DNA from: Planctomycetia bacterium
Lineage (GTDB): Bacteria; Planctomycetota; Phycisphaerae; UBA1845; UTPLA1
Assembly (NCBI GenBank): GCA_015075745.1
Contig: JABTTW010000001.1
Coordinates: 2,542,001-2,606,000 of the forward strand
Length of the DNA stretch: 64,000 nt
Direction: 5' to 3'
Program-made: the position numbers and the translations under genes
Shown here: positions 1 through 40,155 of the stretch, one piece after another
Position numbering within the stretch: position 1 is the stretch's first letter
How the letters are laid out: every line of letters begins with the position of its first letter
Notes under the pieces: generated by a model
Databases searched by the model: none
Seen by the model: the letters and a program-made list of their open reading frames with translations, nothing else
What the model was told of the DNA's origin: nothing

Positions 1-2
1 TG

Positions 3-3000
3 GTGGGTCGACTCCAGCAGCAGTATGACAAGCCGATAAAGCTCATTCCGCTCGGCGATGCCACCGGCCGGGTGAAGGTGATTGATATTCACGAGGGCGA
101 AGAGGACGATAGCGGCGTAAGCCCGTGCGTCCTCCCGATGAGCATGATCAACTCGCTTCAGTCGCTTTCGCTTGGGCAGTCAGATGCGAAGTCAGGTGAC
201 TCAGATCTGCTCGATCCGGCAGTGTGCCCGATCTGCCATCAGAGCCCCTGCACCCTTCCCGCTCAGTTGCTTCGCTCGCTTGATTCGGTATCGATGGCCG
301 GGTTCGACTCGCAGCCAGAAGAAGAAAAGCAGAGCGGCAAGCGCGAGTTCTCCACCGGCGAGCGGCAGCACAATCACCCGGTTGAGCCGAATGCCGAGGC
401 TTCAACCGATGAGGTCAACCAAGTCGAGATTCTCTACGATGCCGAAACCGGCAAGATCATTCTCAAGGGTCCCGAGGAGGAGCTTGAGAAGATCGAGCTG
501 ATGCTTGAGGATATCGAAGACGAAGAGCAGCCCACGGTCTTTCGCGTATTCCCGCTCAAGTACGCCGATGTCGTTACGGCGGCGCAGCTTCTCGAACAAG
601 TGTTCAACCAGGGCCAAGCCGTCGCCGCAGGTAGTCGCAGAGGTCGCGGCGCGCAGCAGCCGGCGCCGATGCCGGTCCCGCAGCCTCCGCCGCAGCCCGG
701 CCAGGGGGGCAAAGGCGGTCAGCCCAATCCGCAGCAGCAGCTTCAACAGTTGATGGCCCAGCAACAGGCCGCCCAACAGCAGGGGCCGTCGCGCGTCAAG
801 GTAGTGGCCGATCCGCGCACGAAGAGCCTGTTCGTCGCGGCGCTGCTTTCCGATGTGCCGCTCATCGTCGACGTGCTTCGCAAGATTGATGCCCCGACCG
901 ACGTCTTCGAGAAGACAATCAAAATCTTCCGACTGGAGAATCTCGATGCCACGCAGGTGGTCGAAAGCCTCAAGGAAGTCCTCGGGGTACAGAGTGCTGC
1001 AATTGCGCGCGGCGCTCCGCAGCGTGGCGGTCGGCCCGGTCAACCGCAACCCGGTCAGGACCAGCAGCAGATGCTTCAGCTTCAGAATGCCCAGGGTCAG
1101 TCGGTCGCCGTCTCGGCCGATGCCATTGAGCTTTCCGCCGAGGCCCAGACCAACAGCATCATCGCCAAGGCCCCGCCGGACACGCTCACGTTGATCGGCG
1201 ACCTCATCAAAGACCTCGAATCGCAGGACAACACAACCGTGACCGAGATGCGCCGAGTGCCGCTCAAGTTTGCCCGTGCAACCGATGTGGCCACGATCGT
1301 GAAGGAAGTCGCCACTCAGGTAACCCCGCGACGTGGCGGCAGCGGAAGATTTGGCGGTCGCAACGGCGGCGGCACGACTTCCAGCGGCGTCTCCGTCAAC
1401 GCGGATGCCCGAACGAATAGCGTCATCATCGCCGGGCAGTCCAAGGATGTTGACCGCGCTGCCAAGATCGTGGAGGACATGGATATCCCCGCCGACGGCG
1501 GCGCTATTCAACAGTTCGCCGTCAAGGGCAGTCCCAGCCAGATGGCCAACACGCTCAAGTCGCTCTTCTCGTCCGGCAGCCAGAACGACATCGTCATCAC
1601 CGGCGACGATTCCACCGGCACGCTGCTGGTGAAAGCCCCGCCGGCGCAGATGCAGGAGATCGCCGACCAGATCGCCAAGATGGACGAGAAGGTCGCCGAC
1701 ACCAAGGACATCAAGACCATCAAGCTGCTCGTCGCCGATGCCGAACAGGTCGCGCCCAAGTTGCAGGAAATCTTCCAGGCCCCGCGCACCGGCGGCGCCA
1801 AGCAGACGGTGAGCATCAAGGGCAACAAGAACAACAGCATGCTCTACGTCACCGGCGCAGACGAAGAGACCATGAAGCAGATCAAGGAAGTCGCCACGGG
1901 AATGGACCTTGCTCCCAGCGGCATCCAGGTTCGTCGCTTCCCGATGCAGAACGCATCCGCCGTCGAGATGAACACCCAGTTAACCGACATGCTCGCCAAG
2001 GCGAAGATGTCAGGTGGGCTTGAAGGCGTCAAACTCGACTTCGTCGGCGCCGTGCCCGACCCGCGCACCAATTCACTCATCGTGACCGGCGGGCCGATCA
2101 CGTTTCTCCTGATCGGCGACATTCTCAAGGAAGTGGACGTGGCATCGCCGCCGGACATCGCCCGCGACACGCGGACCTACGAACTGCCGATCTCGGTGGA
2201 CGTCAATCAGGTCGTGCAGAACATCCAGTCGCTGTTCGCCTCGGCCGCGTCGCAGAAGACCGGCTTGGAACCGCCGACCGTCGCAGCAAACGTCGCCGGC
2301 AATCTGGTCATTGTTACGGCCAATGGCAAACAGCACGAACAGATCAAGACCTCGGTGATCGACCCGATCATCACCGCCGTCGGCTCGTCGTTCGAGGACT
2401 ATCGCATCAACCTGAAGTTCATCCGCGCGGAGGATGCCGAGGCGACGCTTAAGAAGTTCATGGATCAGTGGTGGCAGTCGCGCGGCGGAAAGTTGCAGGA
2501 CCGCTTCGCCATCACCGCCGATCCCGGCAGCAACATTCTGCTCATCAACTGCACCCCGGCTACGAAGCAGATCATCGACAATCAGCTCGTTGAAATGGAC
2601 ATCGCCGGTGGCATCCCGGAGACGCGCACGATTCAGCTTCAGTTCGCCCGTGCCGATCAGGTCGCACCGGCCATGATGCAGACATTCCAGAGCAAGACGA
2701 CGGCCAACACCAAGGGTCAGTGGCCGGTCACCGTCATTGCCGAGGTCAATTCCAATTCGCTCGTTATCACGGCCAAGACCGACCTCTGGCCGGAAGTGGA
2801 GTTGCTTGTTAAGTCGCTCGACGTCCGCGACACGGCGGGCGAGCGCGAGCGCCGACTCTTCAAGTTGACCTACGCCGATCCCGGCTCGGTTTCGAATGCG
2901 ATTCGCCAGGCCTTCCAGCCGGTGGGCCGCACGCCGAGCCCGCGTGACATGGTCGCCACCGCCGACGACTGGACGACCGACAGCGTCGTGGTGACGGCGG

Positions 3001-6000
3001 CCAAAGACCTCATGCCGGAGATTGAATCGCTCGTCCTGAAGATGGACCAGCCCGGCGACGCGCTGCGGACCGAGCACGTCATTGAACTGACGAACACTAA
3101 CCCGCAGGACGTGGCGACGTCGCTCCAGCAGATTCTCGACGCGTCAAAGATGGGCCAAAGACAAAAGCCTCCGGCTCAGATTCGCGCCATCCCCGGTACG
3201 ACCAAGATCATCGCTTACGCCAACGAGGAGGAATTCGAGCAGATTTCTTCGTTGGTGGAGAAGATCGACCGTGCCGAGGGCGGCCGCGAAGTGCACACCG
3301 TGGTTTTGCCGGAACTCGTTCCGGCCAAAAACGTCGCCGAGGCGATCAAGCTGCTCTACGGCGGCGGCCAGGGCGGCCCGGGTGCCAAGGACATCAAGGC
3401 TGAGTATCACGAGCCGACCAACACGATCATGGTCTATGCCACTCAGGCCGAGTTCGACAAGATTAAAGAGCAGATCATCGACAAAATCTCCACTGTGCCG
3501 ACCATCGGTGCAATGAAAATTTACCAGATCGCACTTCACTACGCCGTCGCCGACGAACTCGCCAAGACCCTGCAAACCTTCTTCGATAAAAAGGCCGGCC
3601 TCAAGACCGGCGGACAGAGCAATCTGCCGCCGTGGATGCGCGGCAATGAGCCCCCGTCGAAGGCCGCGGACAATCAGGTCTCGATCATCGCCGAGCCGAC
3701 CAGCAACACGCTGCTTGTCTATTGCACGGACGCAACCAAGGCCCTGATCGACGACATCATCAAGGAGATCGATGTCGACCCGTCCACCGGCAGCATCATG
3801 GAAATGGTGCCGCTGAAGTTTGTCGACGCGACCGAAATGCTCGACATCCTCACCGAATACCTCAAGGTCGCCCAGCGCTCGCCGGACAGCGAGAACAAGC
3901 AATTCGTCCCCTGGTGGGCCGACCGCGAAGAAAAGACCGAGGAGAAGACCGTCCTCGCCGGCGGTATGCGCCTCAAGGCGATCGACTCCATGAATGCGAT
4001 CATCGTCGTCGGCAAGACCGACAGCGTCCGCGACGCCGTGGCGAAGATCAAGGAACTCGACATCGAACGGCCGGAAAGCGGCGATGCCCCGCAGCGCATT
4101 CAGCTTGCTTCCGCGAACGCGACCGAACTGACCGACACGCTCAACAAGGTCTTTAACGATCCCAACCTCGCGAAGTCCAAAGGCAAGAACTACGTCCCGC
4201 CGATCATCGTCGCCGAAGAGGCCACCAAGAGCCTGATCGTCCGCGCCAAGCCCAGCGACTTCAATCTCATCAAGAAGATGGCCGAGGGGCTGGACAAGGA
4301 AATGGAAGGCGACACCGGCGCCGGCGTTCGCGTCCTCTCCGTTCCCACCGGCCGCGACCTGGAAGAGCTTGCCCGTAACATCGAAAAGCGCATCAACGAC
4401 GCCGAAAACAATCGCCGCCAGACGCAGAGGGATTACAAGCCGAGTCTGGTGAGCATCGGCGCCGACCTGCGTTCCAGCGCGCTCGTCGTCGCCGGATCGA
4501 AGGGCAAGTACGAGGAGGTCAAGCAGCTTGTGATCGACCTCGTAAGCATGGCCCCGGCCGGCAACACCCAGCGCCGTGTCATCCCGTTGAAATCTCTCAG
4601 CCCGCAGGAGGCGAAGCAATTGATCGAGCAGTTCCAGCAGAGCGGTAAGGGTAAGTCGTCCGGCCCGCGCTCGGATGCGACATGGACCAATCAGCGGCGC
4701 TACGAGGCCCCACTTCAAAGGAAATCGCCGCGCCGCGCGATGGTCGCAGGTTCGATTCCTGTCTTCATGATGCAAGTCGCCCTTAGTAGCGCGATGGCGC
4801 AAGCTGATTCGCAGAAGCCAACGACCAAGCCGACCGGCCCGATGATCAGCACGATCCGCCCGCGCGTGGCCACGACGCAGCCCACCCTGGAGCCGCAGGC
4901 CACCGCCACCAGCCAGCCGCGCCCAGCCACGCCGGCGAGTCAGAGCGACCCGAAGAAAATCCTGGAGAGCCGCATCGCCGAGCAGGGCAAGCTCGATATC
5001 TCAAGAATGTCCGACTCCGCCAAAGAGGCCCTGGGTCGCAAGCTCTCCGGTGCGCCGATCTCCGTCGCCGAGGCCGGCTCAGAGACGATCGTCGTCGAGG
5101 CCTCCGATGAAGACATGGAAGTGCTTATTTCCATCCTTGAGATGCTCGATACGGCGATTCCTGACAAGCGCATCGAGTACGTCGCGCTTCAGAAAGCCAG
5201 CGCGCAGGACATCGCCAAGACCCTGACCGACGTATTCAGCAAGGTCGAGCAGAAGGGCGAACGCAAGGTCAAGCCCGAAGACAAGGTCGACATCATCGCC
5301 GACCCGCGCACCAACGGCCTCTACATCGCCGCGACCGAAGCGAAGATGCAAAAGGTCATGGACCTGATCGAGCAGAACGAAAAGGCCGCCGGCGCGATGC
5401 TCAAGCAGGTCAAGACCTTCGCCCTCAAAAATCGTCGCGTCTCCGAAGTCGGCGAAGTCCTTAAGAAGATGGTCTCGACCTACCTCTCACAAAAGGGGCT
5501 CGATCCGAAGTTGATCGGCGTTGAAATCGACCCGCAGACCAACAGTGTCTTTGTCACCGCAAACGAGACGGACCTCTCCTTCGTCACCCAGATCATCGAA
5601 GGCCTCGACGCCGCTCTCCCCCCTGCGGAGGAAGGCAAAGAGCAGCCCATCGGCGAAGCAGACGTGATGATTATCCCCCTGCGCATCGCCCAGGCCGACA
5701 CCCTCGGCACCCTGCTTAACGAACTCCTCAAAAAGGCCGGCACCGGCGACACGCCGATGAAGGACTTTATCCGCCGCTTCCGTCTGCTCGACGAGGCGGG
5801 CAATCCGCTCGCCACGGTCAATCTCGATCGGCCCATCGTCGTCTTCGGCGACAAGGACTCGAACTCGCTCATGATCGCCAGCACCCGGCAGAACTGCCTC
5901 ATCATGAAGCAGGTCGTCGCCGCCTTCGACAAGGAGCCTGCCCGCGCAGAAGTCGCCTACAAGGTCTTCACCCTCGCCAATGCCGACGCCACCGAGGTCG

Positions 6001-9000
6001 CCGAGCAGATCAACAAACTCCTGACCGACGGCGAGAAGCTCACCGCCCGGCCGGGCAAGAGCGAGGCCTCCGGCGTGCCCGACGGCGAAGCCGGCTCGCT
6101 CGTCTATCGGGCAGTCATCTCCGCCGATCCGCGGACGAATCAGGTCATGCTCGTCGGCCGGCCCGAGTCGCTTGAAGTCCTGTCCGACCTGGTGACGCGG
6201 CTGGACCAGAAGGGGCTGGACGTGATGCCCTTCGAGTTGGTCCGGCTGGAATATGCCAGCGTCTCGGCACTGGAGAAGGCCCTTTCGGAGATGATGAAAG
6301 AGCGCGCCGAGGCCCTTCCCAAGGGCACCTCGGCCAATGCCGGCAAGAGTGAAACGGTCATCATCAAGGGTCACCCGCAGTCCAAGTCTCTGATCATCGC
6401 CGCCAAGGCCAACCGCCTCGAAGAGCTCAAGGTCCTCATCAAGAAACTCGACATTCCCTCCACGCTTCTGATGGATGACATTCGCACCATCACCGTCAAG
6501 AACACCAACGCGACCGAGCTGGCCGACAAGCTGAAGGACCTCTGGGATCAACGGGCCAAGCAGCAGGATGAGGGCGACGGCTTCAAGCTGGAGACCCCCG
6601 CCATCGTCGCCGACGAGCGAAGCAACTCGCTGATCGTCGCCGCGGCCAAGGCCGACTTCGACGCGATCAAGAACGTGGTCGACAAGATCGAGGCGCTGGA
6701 GCTGAACCCAATGGCGAACATCTACGTCATCCGGCTGAAGTTCAATTCCGCCAAGCAGCTTCAGTCCGCCTTCCAGGCCCTCTTCGACAAGCGCGCCGAG
6801 ATGCGCACGGTCGAAGGCAAGAGCCGCCCCGAGGATAAGGTGGCCATCGAGATCGATGAGACGACCAACGCCATGCTCTTCGCCGGCTCGCGCGAGAACT
6901 ATGACGTGCTCATGCAGAAGGTCACGGAGCTGGATCAGGAACTGGGCGTCCCCGGCGTGGTCGAGTTTTTCGTCTGTGACAACGTCGGCGCCCACCGCGT
7001 CAAGGACACCATCGACGAGTTGTTCAAGGACAACGGCATCTACAAGCCGGGCGCCAGCAGCGACAGCGAGACCGCCAAGAAGCGCGACAAGGTGACGGTC
7101 AGCATCGACGATCGGTCGAACATGCTCCTCGTCTCGGCCTCCCCGGAGAACATGAACCTCATCCGCGAAGTCTACAAGCGGATGAACAGCGTCACGACGC
7201 CGTGGGACGTGGCCATCACCAAGATGGTCATTGTCGAGCACGGCGACTCGGTGAAGATCGCCGCACAGGTCGCGGACTATTTCAAGAAGCTCGACGAAAT
7301 CCGCGACACCGGCGGTTCCAGCGGAAGCAGCGGCGGCAGCAGCAAGTCCGGCTTCGGCATCACCGTCTTCGCCGATGAGCGAAGCAATCGCATCATCGTC
7401 GGCGGCACCAAGGACGGCATCGACGGCGCGGTCGAACTCATCAAGCGTCTCGACGTTCCGCCCGGCACGCCCGGCCAGCTCATGGAGGTCTATACCCTTC
7501 AGGAGGCACCGGCCGCAAAAATCGGCGAGATGATTAAGAAGGTCTTCGAAGAGCGCAACAAGCCGCGCGAAGGCGGCGGCGACACCGGCGTCCAGGTGCC
7601 CAACGTGACCGTCACGGTCGAGCCGGATAACGGCCGCAATGCCCTGCTCATCAATGCTTCAAGAGAAGATCATCTGCTCATCCGAGACCTGGTGACCCGT
7701 CTCGATCGGCCTTCGACCATCCTGCAAATGGCCCGTGTGATTGCCCTTGAAAAGGCGCCGGCCGAGCGCGTGAAAGAGATTCTCGAAGAGCTGTACAAGT
7801 CCGGCGAGTCCGGCGGCGAAGGTGGTTCCTCCGCCAAGTCGATTGGCGTCGTGGAAGACAAGCGGACCAATTCCGTCGTCGTCACCGCCGCGCCGGGCGA
7901 ATTGGAGAACATCGTTTCTCTCGTCAAGCGGCTCGATCAGACCGAGGTCAAGGGTCAGGTCGAAATCGGCATCTATCTCTGCGAAAACGAAGACGCCGAG
8001 AAGATGGCCGACGTTCTCAATCAGATCATGACCGGCGCGGCTGGTGAAGGCGGCAGCGGCGGCTCGTCCGCATCGGGCGATGATGCGAAGCGAACCCTCT
8101 CCTCCATTCTTGTCTCCTATGCAGACAAGGATCCGCAGGGCCGCGAGATTTTCCTGCGCACGATTCGCGAGAACGTGCAGATCACATTCAACGTTCGGAC
8201 CAACGCCATCGTCGCCGTAGCCCCGCCCCCGGCGCTTCGGCTCATCGAACAACTGGTCACCAAGCTGGACCAGATTCAAAAGCGCTCGGTGCTCGTCAAG
8301 GTGTTCATGCTGCGTAACGCCGACGCGACCAAGATGGTCGAACTGCTTACGGACATGTTCGCACAGGACGAAGGGGCCGAGGACCAGGCCGAATTCCAGC
8401 GTGATCGTTCCGTCGAAGTCGAGGGCGGCAGCACCTCCACCGGAGGCGCGCCCACCGCCGCCTCGCAGGAAGGCTCGTCGCGCAAGGGTACCTTCGGTCG
8501 CCCCAAGACCACCTTTGTGCCGGACGAGCGGACCAATTCACTGATCGTCGCCGGCTGGCCCGAGGATATCGACGTCGTCGCCGACGTGATCGACCAGCTC
8601 GACTCGCGGCCGATCCAGGACCGCGACAACTTCGTTTACACCCTGGTCAATCAGACCTCCGACGAGATGCAGGGCGCGCTCCAGGAATACTTCGATGCCG
8701 AGGTGCAGCGCCTCGAAAGCCTCGGCGAGACTGTCTCGCCGCAGCGCCTCATGGAGCAGGAAGTCTCCGTCATCTCCCATCCGGAGTCGAACCAGCTCGT
8801 TGTCTCGGCGAGCCCGCGCTACAAGCAGCAGGTCATCTCGCTGATCGAACAACTCGACATGGCCCCGCCGCAGGTGATGATCCAGGTGATGATCGCCGAA
8901 GTCTCGCTTGATGATCGCTTCGAGATGGGGCTGGAGTTTGCCCTTCAGGAACTCCGCTTCAGCGAGACCGCCGTCGCCGGGCCCAATGGCATTCTCCAGA

Positions 9001-9959
9001 GCAGCCACTTTGACGTCGTCGGCGGTACCGATCTCGGCGCCTCCGGCAGTGGACTGGGCGGATTCTCATTCACCATCACCGGTGAAGACTTCAACTTCCT
9101 CGTCCGCGCCCTCCAGGCCGACAGCCGCCTGGAAGTCATTCAGCGACCGATGATCATGTGCCAGGACAATCAGCAGGCCACGATCCAGATCGGTCAAAGC
9201 GTGCCCACGCCCAGCGGCGCACAGACCTTCGGCGGGCAGACTTCCACGCAGGTGCAATACCAGGAAGTCGGCGTGATCCTCAACGTCGAGCCGCACATCA
9301 ATCCTGATGGCTTTGTGTACATGCTCGTTGAGCCGGAAGTGTCCTCCATCACGGACTCCACGATTCAGATCGCCCCCGGCGCCTTCGCCCCGATCTTCAA
9401 CCGCCGAACCGCTTCAACGAATGTCGCGGTCAAGGATGGCGAAACGGTGGTCATCGGCGGTCTCATCACGACGACCGAGAACGAGTCCGAGAGCAAGGTT
9501 CCTCTCCTGGGCGATATTCCCGGGCTTGGCGTCCTTTTCCGCACGACCTCACGGACGAAGAATCGCACCGAATTGCTCATCGCCATGACACCGACGGTCG
9601 TCCGCACGGTGGAGGATGCCCGACGTATCTCCATCGAGAAGCGCGACGAGTCCGGCATCATCACCGACGAAATGAAACAGAGCGTCCTGATGGGTAAGCT
9701 GCAGGTCAAGGCCGAGTCGGCCGACGAGATCGACTCGCTCGAAGCCCCGCCGGAGCTGAGCCCCGACGCCCCGTTGCCGGAAGGCACTTACATGGAGGAC
9801 AGCGAAGTTCTTCCCGCCGAGCCGGTCAAGACGAAGGATCAGCCCGACAGCGACAAGCCCAAGTACGGCCCCGAGCCGCTCAAGTATGGCCCCATGGCGC
9901 CATCCGGCGAGGACATGGTCGCGCGGCGCACAACGAAAGAGTTGGAGGTCGGCCGATGA
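3..9959 (+). CDS. Giant secretin-family protein with about 31 tandem secretin N-domain (NolW-like) repeats; 5' end outside window
   Basis: The open frame runs from the window edge for 3318 codons, so the true start lies upstream. From about residue 177 to 2950 I count by eye 31 copies of a roughly 90-residue unit: a beta strand such as VFRVFPLKYADV, a helix, a variable Gly/Ser/Pro-rich loop, then a strand pair of the type ADPRTNSLIV and a helix ending in ...LD. This is the secretin N1/N3 (NolW) fold pattern. Residues about 2955-3200 are a secretin pore domain with the signature VPLLGDIPGLGVLF near residue 3166; a Pro/Lys-rich tail follows. GspD and PilQ usually carry one to four N domains, so this is extreme. 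Repeat 17 is split by an insertion of about 110 residues (about 1545-1655). Secretins form outer-membrane multimeric channels for type II secretion, type IV pili or phage export; I infer that class of role, with a very long periplasmic part. Confidence 0.85.
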   Translation: MGRLQQQYDKPIKLIPLGDATGRVKVIDIHEGEEDDSGVSPCVLPMSMINSLQSLSLGQSDAKSGDSDLLDPAVCPICHQSPCTLPAQLLRSLDSVSMAGFDSQPEEEKQSGKREFSTGERQHNHPVEPNAEASTDEVNQVEILYDAETGKIILKGPEEELEKIELMLEDIEDEEQPTVFRVFPLKYADVVTAAQLLEQVFNQGQAVAAGSRRGRGAQQPAPMPVPQPPPQPGQGGKGGQPNPQQQLQQLMAQQQAAQQQGPSRVKVVADPRTKSLFVAALLSDVPLIVDVLRKIDAPTDVFEKTIKIFRLENLDATQVVESLKEVLGVQSAAIARGAPQRGGRPGQPQPGQDQQQMLQLQNAQGQSVAVSADAIELSAEAQTNSIIAKAPPDTLTLIGDLIKDLESQDNTTVTEMRRVPLKFARATDVATIVKEVATQVTPRRGGSGRFGGRNGGGTTSSGVSVNADARTNSVIIAGQSKDVDRAAKIVEDMDIPADGGAIQQFAVKGSPSQMANTLKSLFSSGSQNDIVITGDDSTGTLLVKAPPAQMQEIADQIAKMDEKVADTKDIKTIKLLVADAEQVAPKLQEIFQAPRTGGAKQTVSIKGNKNNSMLYVTGADEETMKQIKEVATGMDLAPSGIQVRRFPMQNASAVEMNTQLTDMLAKAKMSGGLEGVKLDFVGAVPDPRTNSLIVTGGPITFLLIGDILKEVDVASPPDIARDTRTYELPISVDVNQVVQNIQSLFASAASQKTGLEPPTVAANVAGNLVIVTANGKQHEQIKTSVIDPIITAVGSSFEDYRINLKFIRAEDAEATLKKFMDQWWQSRGGKLQDRFAITADPGSNILLINCTPATKQIIDNQLVEMDIAGGIPETRTIQLQFARADQVAPAMMQTFQSKTTANTKGQWPVTVIAEVNSNSLVITAKTDLWPEVELLVKSLDVRDTAGERERRLFKLTYADPGSVSNAIRQAFQPVGRTPSPRDMVATADDWTTDSVVVTAAKDLMPEIESLVLKMDQPGDALRTEHVIELTNTNPQDVATSLQQILDASKMGQRQKPPAQIRAIPGTTKIIAYANEEEFEQISSLVEKIDRAEGGREVHTVVLPELVPAKNVAEAIKLLYGGGQGGPGAKDIKAEYHEPTNTIMVYATQAEFDKIKEQIIDKISTVPTIGAMKIYQIALHYAVADELAKTLQTFFDKKAGLKTGGQSNLPPWMRGNEPPSKAADNQVSIIAEPTSNTLLVYCTDATKALIDDIIKEIDVDPSTGSIMEMVPLKFVDATEMLDILTEYLKVAQRSPDSENKQFVPWWADREEKTEEKTVLAGGMRLKAIDSMNAIIVVGKTDSVRDAVAKIKELDIERPESGDAPQRIQLASANATELTDTLNKVFNDPNLAKSKGKNYVPPIIVAEEATKSLIVRAKPSDFNLIKKMAEGLDKEMEGDTGAGVRVLSVPTGRDLEELARNIEKRINDAENNRRQTQRDYKPSLVSIGADLRSSALVVAGSKGKYEEVKQLVIDLVSMAPAGNTQRRVIPLKSLSPQEAKQLIEQFQQSGKGKSSGPRSDATWTNQRRYEAPLQRKSPRRAMVAGSIPVFMMQVALSSAMAQADSQKPTTKPTGPMISTIRPRVATTQPTLEPQATATSQPRPATPASQSDPKKILESRIAEQGKLDISRMSDSAKEALGRKLSGAPISVAEAGSETIVVEASDEDMEVLISILEMLDTAIPDKRIEYVALQKASAQDIAKTLTDVFSKVEQKGERKVKPEDKVDIIADPRTNGLYIAATEAKMQKVMDLIEQNEKAAGAMLKQVKTFALKNRRVSEVGEVLKKMVSTYLSQKGLDPKLIGVEIDPQTNSVFVTANETDLSFVTQIIEGLDAALPPAEEGKEQPIGEADVMIIPLRIAQADTLGTLLNELLKKAGTGDTPMKDFIRRFRLLDEAGNPLATVNLDRPIVVFGDKDSNSLMIASTRQNCLIMKQVVAAFDKEPARAEVAYKVFTLANADATEVAEQINKLLTDGEKLTARPGKSEASGVPDGEAGSLVYRAVISADPRTNQVMLVGRPESLEVLSDLVTRLDQKGLDVMPFELVRLEYASVSALEKALSEMMKERAEALPKGTSANAGKSETVIIKGHPQSKSLIIAAKANRLEELKVLIKKLDIPSTLLMDDIRTITVKNTNATELADKLKDLWDQRAKQQDEGDGFKLETPAIVADERSNSLIVAAAKADFDAIKNVVDKIEALELNPMANIYVIRLKFNSAKQLQSAFQALFDKRAEMRTVEGKSRPEDKVAIEIDETTNAMLFAGSRENYDVLMQKVTELDQELGVPGVVEFFVCDNVGAHRVKDTIDELFKDNGIYKPGASSDSETAKKRDKVTVSIDDRSNMLLVSASPENMNLIREVYKRMNSVTTPWDVAITKMVIVEHGDSVKIAAQVADYFKKLDEIRDTGGSSGSSGGSSKSGFGITVFADERSNRIIVGGTKDGIDGAVELIKRLDVPPGTPGQLMEVYTLQEAPAAKIGEMIKKVFEERNKPREGGGDTGVQVPNVTVTVEPDNGRNALLINASREDHLLIRDLVTRLDRPSTILQMARVIALEKAPAERVKEILEELYKSGESGGEGGSSAKSIGVVEDKRTNSVVVTAAPGELENIVSLVKRLDQTEVKGQVEIGIYLCENEDAEKMADVLNQIMTGAAGEGGSGGSSASGDDAKRTLSSILVSYADKDPQGREIFLRTIRENVQITFNVRTNAIVAVAPPPALRLIEQLVTKLDQIQKRSVLVKVFMLRNADATKMVELLTDMFAQDEGAEDQAEFQRDRSVEVEGGSTSTGGAPTAASQEGSSRKGTFGRPKTTFVPDERTNSLIVAGWPEDIDVVADVIDQLDSRPIQDRDNFVYTLVNQTSDEMQGALQEYFDAEVQRLESLGETVSPQRLMEQEVSVISHPESNQLVVSASPRYKQQVISLIEQLDMAPPQVMIQVMIAEVSLDDRFEMGLEFALQELRFSETAVAGPNGILQSSHFDVVGGTDLGASGSGLGGFSFTITGEDFNFLVRALQADSRLEVIQRPMIMCQDNQQATIQIGQSVPTPSGAQTFGGQTSTQVQYQEVGVILNVEPHINPDGFVYMLVEPEVSSITDSTIQIAPGAFAPIFNRRTASTNVAVKDGETVVIGGLITTTENESESKVPLLGDIPGLGVLFRTTSRTKNRTELLIAMTPTVVRTVEDARRISIEKRDESGIITDEMKQSVLMGKLQVKAESADEIDSLEAPPELSPDAPLPEGTYMEDSEVLPAEPVKTKDQPDSDKPKYGPEPLKYGPMAPSGEDMVARRTTKELEVGR

Positions 9960-10567
9960 TCAGACGACCACGGCATTTAACGCAAAACGCGACCCGCGCC
10001 GCAATCTGCGCGGCGGGCCTTTTTGTTCTCGCCCTGTCGACAGGTTGCACCGAGCAGGAAATCGCCAAGTGGGAGGCGGCGAATCGTCCGCTCCTCGCGC
10101 GCGACTCGGCTCCGGTCGAGACCAACATTGTCCGCGTCAACAAGTTCTTCAGCCAGACGCCGTGGCTCTCCTTCAAGAACGACGGCAGCAAAAAAGTCGA
10201 TGGCGTCAGCTTCAGCCTTTATCTCGAAGGCCCCTCCGCCCCTAAGGGCGTCTTCGGCACCGGCACCATCGCGATTGCCATGTACCGCCTCGACACCGAT
10301 CCGCTCGGCAAGGAAGTGGCGACTCAGGTCAAGGAATGGGTCATGACCGCCGACGAGGCCTACGCATGGCGATCGAAGAAGCAAACCGCCCTTGGCTGGG
10401 GATACGGCATCCGGCTCAACTGGGGTGATGAAGTCGACGTGGCCGGCAAGCAGATCGCCATCGTCGCCAAGTACCTCCGGGAGGACGGCCGCGTGATCAG
10501 CTCCTCCCGCCAGGTTCTCAAAGTGCCCCCCGACGGCGCCAAGCCCTCGCTCGCCGCGCGTAATTAG
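9956..10567 (+). CDS. Predicted lipoprotein following the giant secretin gene
   Basis: The start codon overlaps the secretin stop by four bases (ATGA), so the two genes are almost surely co-transcribed and translationally coupled. The 203-residue product begins with a basic n-region, a hydrophobic stretch and a lipobox (LSTGC, Cys about residue 31), so it should be exported and lipid-anchored. The mature part has no motif I recognise; it includes the aromatic segment ALGWGYGIRLNWGD. By position it could be an accessory protein of the secretin, such as a pilotin-like lipoprotein, but this rests only on linkage. Confidence 0.8.
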   Translation: MIRRPRHLTQNATRAAICAAGLFVLALSTGCTEQEIAKWEAANRPLLARDSAPVETNIVRVNKFFSQTPWLSFKNDGSKKVDGVSFSLYLEGPSAPKGVFGTGTIAIAMYRLDTDPLGKEVATQVKEWVMTADEAYAWRSKKQTALGWGYGIRLNWGDEVDVAGKQIAIVAKYLREDGRVISSSRQVLKVPPDGAKPSLAARN

Positions 10568-11181: not shown

Positions 11182-11979
11182 TTAGTACTCGCGCGTCAGC
11201 CGCGACGGGTCCAGTTCCTTCAGCCAGTTGAACGGCAGCTTGAACTGCTGCGGCAGCGGGGCGGCGCGATACACTCGTTCAAAGTCCGCGGTGATGGTGC
11301 TGTAGGCCACGCGATTCTTGAGCACTTCCAGCTTGGCCTGCAAACGCTCGATCTCCTCACCAACGCGGTTGAGCTCCTTCTCCACCGCCAGCGCGGCTTC
11401 GACATCTTCCGCCTTGGCCAGAAGCGCCTCCAGCCGAGTGCGCACGGCCATGGAATTCTTGAGGCGCGCCTGCAGGTCGACATACTCCTCGGTCACGTCG
11501 GTCGCCTGGAGATCGCGCCGCGCGACGTTGCCCAGCGACTCGACCTCAGCGACCGCAGCCTGATACTTGGCCACCGGCACGCGAATGACGATCTGATTCC
11601 CGCTGATGGACTGCACGTAGCCGCCCTGTGCCTCGGCCAGCCGCTCCATCGCATCGATCGCCGCCTCAATCTCCTGCACGACAATGCGAAACTGCGCGGT
11701 GTAAATGACGATGCGCTTGTCGCCCTGCGAGGCGGGCTCGCGATCGGACGCGGGGCGAATCCAGCCTACCCCTGAGGCTGGTGCGGGCGGTGGCGTTTTC
11801 GAAGCTGCGGCGCGATCGAGGTCTGACGGCTGGGCCGCCTTTCGCGCCGCGAATTTGGCTCTCAAGTCTTCATTTCGACCCACAGTGGAACAACCTGCGA
11901 TGAGGCAGATCGCCGCCAGGACAAGAGCCATTCGCGGAACAGCAATTTGATTTTTTCCGGAGTGAGCATTGATCATCAT
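11182..11979 (-). CDS. DUF4349-type lipoprotein
   Basis: 265 residues from the ATG at 11979, which has GAGGG about ten bases upstream; a longer frame from 12165 adds 62 residues without a signal. A signal peptide with lipobox (LIAGC) is followed by a Pro/Ala linker. Next comes a DUF4349-like body: the strand KRIVIYTAQFRIVV, a helix, GGYVQSISGNQIVIRVP, then DVTEEYVDLQARLKN and a long coiled coil of E/L/R heptads, ending in AYSTITADFE. Many DUF4349 proteins have a C-terminal membrane helix; this one seems to lack it and rely on the lipid anchor. Function of the family is unknown. Confidence 0.85.
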   Translation of the reverse strand: MMINAHSGKNQIAVPRMALVLAAICLIAGCSTVGRNEDLRAKFAARKAAQPSDLDRAAASKTPPPAPASGVGWIRPASDREPASQGDKRIVIYTAQFRIVVQEIEAAIDAMERLAEAQGGYVQSISGNQIVIRVPVAKYQAAVAEVESLGNVARRDLQATDVTEEYVDLQARLKNSMAVRTRLEALLAKAEDVEAALAVEKELNRVGEEIERLQAKLEVLKNRVAYSTITADFERVYRAAPLPQQFKLPFNWLKELDPSRLTREY

Positions 11980-12089
11980 ATTAATACGGCCCTCGGCTGC
12001 GATGAGATCGCGGATACTACGGAGGGGCATTATCCGTCCGTTGGCGGGCAGCGGCAACCGGAAATCAGGATGGGGTCCGCAGTCCCCTT

Positions 12090-12509
12090 TTATTCCCCGA
12101 TGAACTTCACCAGCACGCGCTTGCGCCGGCGACCGTCGAATTCGCCGTAGAAAATCTGCTCCCACGGGCCAAAGTCGAGCTTACCGTCGGTGATGGCCAC
12201 GACGACCTCGCGGCCCATGATCGTCCGCTTGAGATGGGCGTCGGCGTTGTCCTCGCCGGTGTCGTTATGGCGGTATTGGTTCACCGGCTCGTGCGGGGCG
12301 AGGCCCTCGAGCCACGTCTCGAAGTCGGCGTGCAGCCCGCGTTCGTCGTCGTTGATGAAGACGCTGGCGGAGATGTGCATCGCGTTGACGAGGCAAAGCC
12401 CCTCGCGAACGCCGCTCTCCTCGATCGCCGTCTCCACCTGCGGCGTGATGTTGACATACCCCCGCCGGGTCTTGAGTTCGAACCACAGTTCTTTACGAAA
12501 TGATTTCAT
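12090..12509 (-). CDS. yjbQ: YjbQ family protein (UPF0047)
   Basis: 139 residues, the usual length of the family. Typical segments are visible: the N-terminal strand [35 protein letters not shown], the conserved metal-site region with His residues ([19 protein letters not shown]), and the C-terminal [19 protein letters not shown]. Family members show weak thiamine-phosphate synthase activity in vitro and the physiological role is unsettled. It reads left and is separated by about 110 bp from the DUF4349 gene. Confidence 0.93.
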
Positions 12510-35428: not shown

Positions 35429-36772
35429 GTGACAGACTGTAACAGCAAACCGATGTTCTTTTCCAGTCTCGGCCGCAAGAAAATCGTGGCCGATTTCACA
35501 GGCGGAACGCTCACCTCAGACGCCGGGGGTCTGCTGCTTCGGGAGGTCGAGCGGCGTCTGGGCCTGGTCGATCAACTGGCCGGGGTCATCAACGACCCGC
35601 GTGATCCGGCCCGAATTCAACATGACCAGCGGGTCATGCTGGCCCAGCGCATCTTTGCCATTGCGATGGGCTACGAAGATCTCAACGACCATCAAGCCCT
35701 GCGGAGCGATCCCGTGCTGGCGGTCCTGACCGGGCGGCCGCCGAGCGCGGATGAGCCGCTGGCCAGCAGTCCGACCTTGTGCCGGCTGGAGAACCGCGTC
35801 ACGCGCGGCGACCTGGCACGAATGTCGCGTGTGCTGGTGGAGCAGTTCATCGCGTCCTATGAATCGCCGCCGGAGGAATTGATCCTCGACTTCGACGCGA
35901 CCGACGATCCGATCCACGGCAACCAGGAAGGCCGCTTCTTCCACGGCTATTACGACCACCACTGCTTCCTACCGCTGTATGTGTTCTGCGGCTCGCGGCT
36001 GCTGGTCTCCTACCTGCGGCCCAGCAACATCGACGGGGCCCATCACGCCTGGCCCATCCTGAAGCTGCTGGTGCAGCGCTTGCGACAGGCGTGGCCCGGG
36101 GTGCGGATCATCGTCCGCGGGGATTCCGGCTTCTGCCGCCGGCGAATGATGAAATGGTGCGACCGGCACGGCGTCAAGTACGTGCTGGGCCTGGCCCGCA
36201 ACACCGTCCTGGAGAAAGCGGCCGAGTCCTTCATGCAGGCGGCCGAGGCCCAGTTCGCCACCACGCAGCAGAAGGTGCGGAACTTCCACGAGATCGAGTA
36301 CGCGGCGCAGACCTGGGATCGCCCGCGCCGCGTGATCGTCAAGGCCGAGCGGCTGGTTCAGGGGCCCAACGTTCGATTCGTGGTGACCAACCTGACCGAC
36401 CGCACGCCGAACGATATCTACGACGGTCTGTACACGGCCCGCGGCGACATGGAGAACCGCATCAAGGAGCAGCAGCTCGGGCTCTTCGCCGATCGCACCA
36501 GTTGCCACGCCTTCCTGGCCAATCAGTTCCGGCTGCTGTTGTCCTCGGCGGCCTACGTCCTGGTGGAAACGCTGCGCCGCACGGCCCTGGCCGGCACCGA
36601 ACTGGCCGAGGCCCAGGTGAACACCATTCGCCTGAAACTCTTCAAGGTCGCCGCGCGGGTGGTCGTCTCCGTGCGCCGCGTCGTACTGCGACTGTCGAGC
36701 AGCTGCCCCCTGCAGGACCTGTGGCGATCCCTGGTTCCACGACTCCGCCTGATCCCGCCCGCCCCATCATGA
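35429..36772 (+). CDS. IS1380 family transposase
   Basis: 447 residues, GTG start after AGGGAGG. The N-terminal part FTGGTLTSDAGGLLLREVE and DPRDPARIQHDQRVMLAQRI, the catalytic DDE candidates in LILDFDATDDPIHGNQEG (first Asp), IIVRGDSGFC (second Asp), and ARGDMENRIKEQQLGLFADR (Glu, the Y-D/E-N-R-I-K region) are all in place. The gene looks complete, so the element may still be active. Confidence 0.95.
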   Translation: MTDCNSKPMFFSSLGRKKIVADFTGGTLTSDAGGLLLREVERRLGLVDQLAGVINDPRDPARIQHDQRVMLAQRIFAIAMGYEDLNDHQALRSDPVLAVLTGRPPSADEPLASSPTLCRLENRVTRGDLARMSRVLVEQFIASYESPPEELILDFDATDDPIHGNQEGRFFHGYYDHHCFLPLYVFCGSRLLVSYLRPSNIDGAHHAWPILKLLVQRLRQAWPGVRIIVRGDSGFCRRRMMKWCDRHGVKYVLGLARNTVLEKAAESFMQAAEAQFATTQQKVRNFHEIEYAAQTWDRPRRVIVKAERLVQGPNVRFVVTNLTDRTPNDIYDGLYTARGDMENRIKEQQLGLFADRTSCHAFLANQFRLLLSSAAYVLVETLRRTALAGTELAEAQVNTIRLKLFKVAARVVVSVRRVVLRLSSSCPLQDLWRSLVPRLRLIPPAPS

Positions 36773-36893: not shown

Positions 36894-36910
36894 CTGATGA
36901 AATATGCGGG
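36894..36910 (-). repeat. IS right inverted repeat
   Basis: 17 bases CTGATGAAATATGCGGG; its reverse complement matches the left end at 16 of 17 bases. CTAG follows at 36911-36914. The ATG within this repeat is the first start codon available to the truncated downstream frame. Confidence 0.88.
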
Positions 36911-39900
36911 CTAGGCAATACGGCCAACCTGCTTCCGCTGAAATGGCCTCGTCGGGCAGCGGCGCGTTGCTGGGAATCGATCCCTGCGATCCCTGCGATA
37001 TGAATTGCGACACCTTTCACGATGACTTCGATATTCCAATATTTGTGGATGCACTGGTTCGGGGGACGTCGTTATGTTCAACCTGTACCGGAGACTTGGA
37101 CGACAACGGGCTCTTCGACGGCCGCGACATTCAGATATTTGTGGAATGCATGTTAGGCAGAATGGGTCCCAGCGTCGTCATTCTGCAAAACGGGACCGTT
37201 GTCCCGAATCCCGCGTATCCCTATCGAATGGAAGCGTATGGCGAAGGCGATCTGCCCGATTTGCGCGCTTTCGCCGACGCCGCCGGCATCTTCGCAGGCA
37301 TTGATATGAACGCCGACTGGAAAGATCGCGAATGGGAGATGATCCAGGCGATTCGGGTTTGGATCGTAAGAAATGTGAGAATGTCGGCGGTAGGCCAGAA
37401 TAGCAAACACGACTTGACTGGTCGTGCAATCTCATTTTTCAGCTCTCTCGCCGAGCGTGGGCAACTCGTTGCTTGGGGCGATGACGATCGATATGGAAAC
37501 GTGAGCGGGGTGTCCGACTTGAGTCCGAATAGCGGTTTCGTGGCCGTTGACGCCGGCATACACCATAGTCTTGCGCTGCGACGCACCGGCGAAGTCGAGG
37601 CCTGGGGTCGAAATCAATTCGGTCAAGGAACGGAACCGATCCTAAACACGGGCTATATTGCTATTTCCGCAGGAGCAAACCATAACCTCGCGCTCAACAG
37701 AGACGGCACGATCTTCGCATGGGGTCAAAAAGAATCCGGCCAATGCGACATTCCGGAACCAAACGCCGACTTCGTCGGAATTGCCGCGGGGATCAAGTTC
37801 AGCATGGGCCTCAAGAGCGACGGCACCGTCGTCGTGTGGGGTATTCTCCCGACCGACGTCTTGCTCAACGAAGAATGGCAGGGACACTTCATCAAGGTTG
37901 CGGCAGGCGGCTATCATTGCGTCGGACTGCTCGACGACGGAACGGTCGTTGCTTGGGGGGACAACAGCACCGGACAGTGTGTGGTGCCAACCCACTTGGG
38001 CAGCTTTCCGCTGCAAGATCGCATTCTCGACATCGGTGCCGGCAAACGGCGCAGTTACGCGACGGTTGATCTTGGATCCGGGATCGTGTCCTGGGGGGCG
38101 CCGCTCGACCAGGGATTTCTCCCCGGCGGTCGCTTTCGATTTGTTTGGCCGAGCCCGACTCATAAGTATCTGCTTACTAGCAGAGCTACCGTTCCGAACG
38201 ATCAGGTGGTGATTGATCGGCAGATCACAGTACCGACTCCGAGTTCCAATCTTGCACTCGCATACGACTCCGATCTCGAAGTGGTCGTGAAATTTGGAGG
38301 GAGTTTTGGCTTGCCTGGCCCGGGCCTCGACGAAACATTTGAATGGGACGGGCGAGAGTGGGACAACATAGCTCCGACGATCAGGCCATCCATCCGTTCC
38401 GGTCACTGCATGGCCTATGACGCCCTGCGGAAGCGTGTCATCATGTGGGGCAGGGACGGTAGCGCTGGCGGCCAGGCCCGCGATGCCTGGGAGTGGGATG
38501 GAAACAACTGGGCAGGGCCGTTTGCCGCGAGCGGTGCCTCGCGCCCATCTGCCTATCGGGACTGCCGAGCGATATGGGATCCGAGCCGCGGTACCGCACC
38601 GGCCGGTCGAGTTACCATTTTTTTTGGTCGAGGTTCCTCGACCGTCTATGAAACGGCCTTCGATTACGATCCTGTTACCCACACATTCGAATCGCGGGAC
38701 ATCGGGGGATCGCCGGGCGCCAGGTATTCGTTCGGCCTCGCCTATGATTCCGTTCGCGATAAGATCGTGAGATTTGGCGGCGCGAATAGCCTGCACATCG
38801 CCACCAACGATACACGCGAGGCCCCGGCCGGCGGGACGGGAACAACGACGTTTTCTCTCGTAGTCCCGGCCACTACCACACCGTCGCCCCGTTACGAGCA
38901 CGCCATGGTGTATGACGCCGCCCGCGCCAAGATCGTGATGTACGGCGGGCAAAACGGCAGCACATTTTACGACGATACGTGGGAGTGGGATGGCGCCGAT
39001 TGGACACTCAAATCGCCGGAAAACTCCCCTGGACAGTTGGCCGGGCATGAGATGGTCTACGACGAAGAGCGCCAAGTCGTCGTTTTGTTCGGAGGCATTC
39101 GAAATGGCGGGGTCAGTGTCGAGGCCTCGAACGAAACGTGGGAATGGGATGGCACGGACTGGAAGCAAAGAAACCTGACGACGATTCCGGAGGGCGCCAT
39201 CCCGGACGTGTCCTCCACCGATTTCGTCTATGTGGGCTACGCGACCGGATCGCAATTCGGCATCGGCCTGCTTGACCAAGTCTGGAGTTGCGGGGCAATT
39301 CAGCAGATGTTTTCCGGCCTTTGTGTCGCTCATGGAATCCCGGCCCGCCGTGTCGAAGGATGGTCGCTGGGCTGTGCGGCAGATACGATTGTGGAAGCCT
39401 TCTCAACGCGGTGGAACAAGTGGATTCTGTTTTGGCATTACACGGGGAATTGGGTCGAAAACGCCGCTGGTATCCCGCTAAGTCAGGCTGAGATGCGTGC
39501 GCACTATGCCGCTGCCGATTACAGCATTAGTCCCGGTTATGAACTGGAAATCGGAAGACGCGGCTGGAGAGCGACGGCCCAAAACGACTCCGGACTGGTT
39601 TTTCAGCCGAACGCCGTCTGTACGGCGCCGCTGCATCCGAGGATCGAGGCCAGGTGGTGGTCCGACACACTGAAGGTCAATCCGGTTTCTCCCGCCGATG
39701 ATCACGATCATTTTGAGCGCAACTTCACGACAAGTCTAACCAGAGCTCACCAGCCAAATCCAACTGCGAATATCGTTCTATTAAACGACTACACCGATAT
39801 TGACGCGATTTGTGGAACCAATCTAAGTAGCAATCTGATGTCGTTTGACGGTGATCCGAACCTGACCTATCCAATAAATAACGTCCAAGCCGAGGCCGAA

Positions 39901-40155
39901 TTGGTGCAAGAAACGCCTCCCAAAGTGCGAATCACCTTACAGCACAACATGGTCGTAGGAACCGGGGAATTTTCGCACTACGAGAAGAGCCTGGATAACG
40001 GCCAGACATGGACGGAGTTGCAAGCATTGCTCGGAGTCTATGACTGGTACCCAACCGGCTCCGCCATATTGATGATCCGCGGCGTAAACGACGCCGGCGT
40101 GCATAGCCCGGACGTCGTTATCCAGTTTTCAGCCGCGGGGGCGACCGGGACCTAA
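36904..40155 (+). pseudogene. 3' part of an IS-interrupted secreted RCC1/kelch/transglutaminase-like protein
   Basis: 1083 codons remain, opening from an ATG inside the IS repeat; the signal peptide is on the other side of the IS. Residues about 25-80 carry two dockerin-like Ca-binding units (CDPCDMNCDTFHDDFDIPIF and GDLDDNGLFDGRDIQIFVEC). Residues about 180-400 are RCC1-like repeats with the recurring core VxAWG (LVAWGDDDR, VEAWGRNQFGQG, IFAWGQKESGQC, VVAWGDNSTGQC). Residues about 430-770 are kelch-like, each with YD...VVxFGG and ETWEWDGxxW. Residues about 790-890 resemble transglutaminases (CGAIQQMFSGLCVAHGIPAR, then EAFSTRWNKWILF). The C-terminal 150 residues hold beta strands. Without export it is probably non-functional. 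Confidence 0.8.

Follow-up and report, generated by a model that had tools for sequence, protein, structure and literature searches.

The window analysed here is a 64,000-nucleotide stretch of DNA (G000:C1:2542001-2606000), and its positions 1 to 9959 are taken up by the 3′ three quarters of a very large forward-strand gene with matches to Pfam Secretin_N (38 stretches), Pfam Secretin and TIGR02517. The full gene, delimited by its open frame, its start and its Pfam matches, is a gspD-like type II secretion system (T2SS) secretin gene at G000:C1:2538601-2551959 (window -3399 to 9959, + strand). Its frame opens 3.4 kb upstream of the window, lies between an in-frame upstream stop at window -3528 and its own stop at window 9959, and measures 4494 aa from stop to stop. 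Three consecutive ATG codons at genome position 2538601 (window -3399) mark the start; the signal peptide HIRFAPIAFVVCFGLTGLTPALRAQNA follows, and the protein has 4452 aa. A sequence-only reading of the window had described a single frame of at least 3318 codons at positions 3 to 9959. That frame is open and real, but position 3 is not its start, and the gene is one quarter longer than that reading saw.

The secretin pore domain (PF00263) spans residues 4170-4335 (window 9108..9605, + strand). It scores 172.5 bits in the whole-protein search, against a cut-off of 27.5, and 179.5 bits in the genome search, and the normal pore with an intact signature noted earlier is indeed there, as VPLLGDIPGLGVLF. 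The nearest solved relatives of the pore by sequence are T2SS GspD structures. With TIGR02517 (type_II_gspD) the whole protein scores 1042 bits (cut-off 351), a value that 19 repeated stretches inflate; on their own, the last 652 aa reach 326.7, slightly short of the cut-off and more than with the PilQ, MshL and SctC models. Six further secretin matches of this genome lie in frames of 398-1056 aa. The giant secretin is of the GspD type in its sequence, its fold and its neighbouring genes, but it has ten times the usual number of domains, which for GspD is three to four in the periplasm. No earlier description of such secretins was found in the open-access literature searched, whose coverage leaves aside subscription journals and preprints. 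No relatives turned up in viral contigs, and a viral origin or spread was rejected.

Searched in full, the protein matches Secretin_N in 38 separate stretches, which together score 1012.9 bits (cut-off 28.2), beside its one Secretin domain. With a repeat model, iterated from one repeat over this locus and its relatives, the number of stretches is 42, each at i-E < 0.01. Since two of these are the halves of one domain, the protein holds 41 N1-type domains, nine upstream of the window and 32 within it (window 291..8864, + strand; repeat model, Pfam and fold), the first listed of the latter being the second half of the split domain 10. The roughly 31 NolW-like repeats counted previously therefore agree well with the 32 domains of the window, but not with the whole-protein total. 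The array is preceded by an N0 domain, which has no Pfam match; a profile of the N-termini of giants aligns with the N0 of ordinary secretins of the class (hhalign 98.5%, E 1.9e-15). Most repeats are separated by linkers of just about 5-10 residues. AlphaFold2 modelling of residues 3450-4400 as a monomer, from 10 aligned sequences, predicts repeated beta-alpha-beta-beta-alpha units and then the pore, at a modest level of confidence: pLDDT averages 62, the domain cores lie mostly at 70-85, and pTM is 0.31. The two monomer models made have mean pLDDT values of 62 and 66 and pTM of 0.31-0.34. In Foldseek, the giant-secretin model retrieves T2SS GspD structures first (E down to 1.3e-26), and the KH-like N-domain fold that had been supposed for the repeats is what these models predict.

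The array is neither a product of misassembled repeats nor a chance frame. Repeats can collapse or expand in MAG-type assemblies; the 41 repeats, however, share a mean identity of 24% and a maximum of 42%, and they are therefore too divergent from each other for misassembly, while comparable frames occur in dozens of genomes, some of them single-contig. In two sister genera of the family, 36-38 repeats pair with those of the giant as reciprocal best matches, in collinear order and at 47-50% identity, and a third genus gives 32 collinear pairs at 43%. The whole secretin frame is under purifying selection (dN/dS 0.21-0.27), with values of 0.14-0.32 for the repeat blocks and 0.04-0.06 for the pore, which are rough because dS is near saturation. 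The low identity among the repeats, the position-matched pairs and dN/dS likewise rule out a recent repeat expansion.

The giant gspD ends a type II secretion operon, all of it on the same strand. Upstream of it lie gspF (C1 2528379-2529575; T2SSF 191 bits, and GspF 381 bits against a cut-off of 424, the best among the models), gspG (C1 2529735-2530190; a GFTLLE-bearing pilin whose tail is GspG-like), three further genes for pilin-like proteins resembling GspH, GspI and GspJ, namely gspH (C1 2530224-2531324), gspI (C1 2531634-2532551) and gspJ (C1 2532548-2533393), gspK (C1 2533288-2535108; GspK match), gspL (C1 2535108-2536964; PilM/GspL-like) and, just before the secretin, a gene for a 511-aa membrane protein (C1 2536961-2538496) whose N-terminal part is GspM/PilO-like by eye. 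Several of these proteins score under the curated cut-offs. The 511-aa protein has a conserved C-terminal domain; searches with this protein gave no solved relative by sequence and no Pfam family, and a GspC domain was not confirmed. GspE is absent from the operon, and 14 strong T2SSE-family matches lie elsewhere in the genome. Because unlinked gspE occurs in other lineages, this lowers the linkage and not the family identity. At 366, 305 and 281 aa, the pilin-like proteins exceed the usual size of minor pseudopilins, and GspK has 606 aa (L008:224-5108, genome C1 2530224-2535108); perhaps they are adapted to a wide channel.

Downstream, a gene for a 203-aa lipoprotein (window 9956..10567, C1 2551956-2552567, + strand) overlaps the secretin stop (ATGA) and encodes a lipobox-like ALSTGC. 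The protein belongs to no Pfam or NCBIfam family, and its lipobox cysteine is invariant among 13 aligned members. By profile search, such a lipoprotein adjoins the giant or split secretin in all 60 loci (40 of this order plus 20 loci of the class with giants) and none of nine ordinary related secretins, although a profile derived from giant loci, as this one is, could overlook very distant versions next to ordinary secretins. The linked lipoprotein had been suggested as an accessory of the secretin, and as a tight partner gene of the giant and split forms it fits that suggestion. Other features of the window are a DUF4349 protein encoded beyond the lipoprotein gene on the other strand (11182-12165), an intact-looking DDE transposase (35429-36772; Pfam DDE_Tnp_1_4) and a 1083-aa protein with RCC1 and Kelch-type repeats (36904-40155).

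Giant secretins, with about 22-61 N domains in one frame, occur across families (numbered f1 to f27 below) of the class Phycisphaerae, as the class is given by the named best matches, and in no other sampled group. Among 61 near relatives, the best-scoring secretin lies in a frame of 4050-5207 aa in most members of f1 and of f4; the f3 frame ends at a contig end, and f2, f5 and f8 have secretin frames of 1.25-1.9 thousand codons. Elsewhere in the class, one-frame giants with 31-61 N domains are found in f10, f16, f17, f18, f22, f24, f26 and f27, the largest in the class sample exceeding 6150 aa with 61 N domains, and f14 has 22 N domains in one frame. Ordinary secretins of 685-851 aa, with three or four N domains, are present in f11, f19, f20, f21 and some members of f17 and f22. 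In a phylum sample of 392 genomes, 354 of them outside the class, matches of at least 2400 aa are confined to Phycisphaerae, and secretin matches outside it reach at most 1495 aa among the matches listed; likewise, none of the best 80 named loci, drawn from many phyla, has more than 10 N domains outside Phycisphaerae. Secretins of Gemmataceae and Pirellulales (L091, L127, L089-L098) are of intermediate length, with 5-10 N domains in frames of 1.1-2.3 thousand aa. An apparent 1901-aa secretin frame in G022 (L060, family f7) was left out as an artefact in which RNA polymerase sequence runs through an N gap into a secretin.

The array is not always carried by one gene. Families f5, f6 and f8 encode it in two adjacent genes, one for an N-domain-only protein of about 22-56 domains with its own signal peptide and one for a secretin with 12-16, and f2 distributes it over three genes, with about 9, 14 and 14 domains. 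The largest array observed, of about 70 N domains in total, is that of f6 in G021 (G021:C190:139069-154131), where a 5021-aa N-domain-only protein with about 56 domains precedes a 14-domain secretin. In each of 15 split pairs examined, an N domain is divided between the two proteins: its beta-alpha half and an arginine-rich tail close the first, and the complementary beta-beta-alpha half comes at the start of the second, after a signal peptide and a linker. The giant of the window shows two such junctions within its single frame. At junction 2 (window 4575..5156, + strand; repeat model and AlphaFold2 secondary structure), N domain 27 is split into a beta-alpha half, an insert of about 124 aa and a beta-beta-alpha half, the two halves being those that reside in separate proteins in f2, f5, f6 and f8. 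AlphaFold2 predicts the halves as beta-alpha and beta-beta-alpha on either side of a disordered insert. By comparison with relatives, the insert contains a signal-peptide-like segment, RRAMVAGSIPVFMMQVALSSAMAQ, in frame (window 4731..4802, + strand). At junction 1, the same comparison places a signal-peptide-like insert, SPCVLPMSMINSLQSLSLGQS, inside the split N domain 10 (window 114..182, + strand), a site that is a real gene boundary with a signal peptide in relatives of f2. The Ala-Gln sites of junctions 2 and 1 are at about residues 2734 and 1193. Further along the junction-1 insert (window 183-290), there is a DPAVCPICHQSPCTLP motif (CxxC..C), which places cysteines in a periplasmic protein; G001 shares it, and G003, G009 and G010 have variants of it.

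In fused members generally, the domain matching number 27 of the 41 is interrupted by an insert of some 85-500 aa that includes a hydrophobic stretch. Of 23 in-frame inserts, 20 have this stretch ending in small-x-small-Gln, an ending shown by 84 of the 510 hydrophobic peaks in other parts of these proteins. For one of the 20 positives (L055), the scored peak lies beyond the insert. The insert limits were set by hand, and as the sequences are related and the trials not independent, the counts overstate the statistics. At junction 1 the ending is found in 12 of 21, and a PCVLPASLL stretch is recurrent in f1 and f8. The junction-2 insert and its motif are also present in frame in f14, which branches outside this order in the pore tree. 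In that tree the fused f1 is nested near the split f8 and f2, and the fused f3 and f4 form another clade; joins or splits have therefore occurred more than once, and more than one change of state is required whichever state is the older.

What, then, are the inserts? One explanation is that they are uncut remnants: an ancestral array would have been split into genes and later rejoined, leaving the old signal peptides as harmless loops. This may well be so, if at somewhat less than an even chance. The repeated joins and splits in the tree accord with it, as do the inserts of f4, which appear decayed. Yet the Ala-x-Ala-Gln ends are kept in nearly all f1 members despite considerable divergence, more than a dead remnant predicts, and fused forms with inserts exist outside the order, in f14. 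Another explanation, possible but doubtful, is that the column consists of two or three chains even where it comes from one gene, the giant chain, of 480 kDa at full length, being cut at the signal-peptide-like inserts as a polyprotein, or its downstream part arising from an internal start; the split N domain would then re-form from two chains and join the stacked segments. It is tempting to read in this way the finding that all 15 two- or three-gene relatives break within the same N domain, into complementary halves and with a signal peptide on the second protein, and the enrichment of the small-x-small-Gln ending in fused giants at junction 2, its occurrence at junction 1, where f2 has a true gene boundary, and its presence in frame in f14 point the same way. 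Against the multi-chain explanation, it is not obvious that an internal hydrophobic segment behind a translocating chain would be treated like a signal peptide, f4 has largely lost the cleavage-like pattern, the insert (dN/dS 0.22-0.54) is under weaker constraint than the domains, and the relatedness of the sequences tempers the motif counts. An internal translation start, in particular, was rejected as a general rule for the downstream part: several fused relatives, f1 members among them, have no ATG before the segment, and most have no good Shine-Dalgarno sequence. The multi-chain explanation concerns how a tube is made and is compatible with a long conduit.

N1-type domains build stacked rings in solved secretins. 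We propose that the giant secretin is probably an ultra-long trans-periplasmic T2SS conduit, an outer-membrane GspD channel with 41 N1-type domains and N0. The domain number, the N0 homology, the GspD-first relatives, the operon, the collinear repeats under selection, the class-wide conservation and the lipoprotein all argue for it, and the six-ring PilQ of Thermus provides a precedent. By analogy with other secretins, 12-15 copies would line up side by side and form one ring per domain position. Such a column would start with the N0 ring on the inner-membrane platform, continue as a stack of 41 rings across a periplasm of unusual width, and end in the outer membrane, where the C-terminal barrel opens. 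If each domain is one ring layer, the predicted tube is about 105-170 nm long (105-168 nm for 42 rings, plus the barrel), taking 2.5-4 nm per ring as our working estimate, and fifteen copies would amount to about 7 MDa. Because N0 is retained, the far end should meet the inner-membrane platform, and the length of the tube should thus match the local periplasm; the periplasm width of giant-bearing Phycisphaerae was not found in the literature searched. Secreted proteins would travel within the closed tube, driven by the GspG pseudopilus, rather than diffuse across a wide periplasm. The pseudopilus piston would have to be correspondingly long; alternatively, substrates might diffuse inside the tube. 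The lipoprotein most likely anchors or pilots the secretin at the outer membrane; a T2SS pilotin is a lipoprotein that attaches to the C-terminus of the secretin and directs it to that membrane. As counterpoints, a 7-MDa channel must also traverse the peptidoglycan, GspE lies outside the operon, a GspC domain was not confirmed, and the confidence of the monomer models is modest.

The N domains might instead form no closed tube, and serve as flexible strands or partial rings that link the pore with the inner membrane or with the wall. The structure models made here are of monomers, and in several GspD complexes the N0-N2 region is flexible or not resolved (PMC6882859). We nevertheless consider such strands unlikely: N1-type domains make rings in all full secretin complexes cited, most inter-repeat linkers have only some 5-10 residues, and conservation is position-specific across many domains, which suggests ordered neighbours. 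A tie to the surface pits of planctomycetes, raised by the sequence-only reading, did not hold up: such crateriform structures were described in Planctopirus and Gemmata, which lie outside Phycisphaerae, and the two membranes are closely apposed there at the crater (PMC5394234), while related secretins outside the class are no longer than the 1495 aa given above among the matches listed. Returning to the long conduit, it is a speculative step, and in our estimate distinctly doubtful, to combine it with the junctions and to suppose that Phycisphaerae build a closed T2SS conduit of more than 100 nm, with some 40 or more stacked rings, made in many species of two or three segments interlocked through split N domains, whether from separate genes or by signal-peptidase-like cutting of a giant precursor.

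Should the domains stack like those of other secretins, no other secretion channel inferred would come near this one in length, and it would reveal how proteins get from the inner to the outer membrane of a bacterium with a very wide periplasm without being lost en route. A question of planctomycete cell biology, namely how inner- and outer-membrane machines stay joined across distant membranes, is thereby made testable. That a single array is encoded now by one gene, now by two or three, with the recurrent breaks exactly inside a domain, is a natural experiment in the modular assembly of ring machines.

A usual secretin has three to six ring-forming domains, whereas the giant has about 41. 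The range of one to four N domains assumed earlier for known secretins is slightly low, as Thermus PilQ has six rings, which are said to span a wide periplasm, and is 35 nm (350 Å) long in all (PMC5745081). In Klebsiella PulD, N0-N3 protrude about 20 nm into the periplasm (PMC6882859). The giant is closest by sequence, fold and operon to GspD (PulD, XcpQ, EpsD, ExeD), with which it has in common the secretin barrel, N0 and N1-type domains; GspD, however, has three N1-type domains in about 650 aa, against 41 in 4452 aa, and the giant differs also in its own lipoprotein family and in relatives that use one, two or three genes. The ordinary GspD-like secretins of Phycisphaerae (f11, f19, f20, f21 and some of f17 and f22) share a related core, N0 and three N1-type domains with the giant, but they have 685-851 aa and lack this lipoprotein family behind them, and those of Gemmataceae and Pirellulales are moderately extended, to 5-10 N domains, without arrays dozens long. 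The PilQ of Thermus thermophilus resembles the giant in its extended ring stack and wide periplasm, as far as the stack of the giant can be predicted from its gene, but it is a type IV pilus secretin of one chain, with N0-N5 only and about one seventh as many rings.
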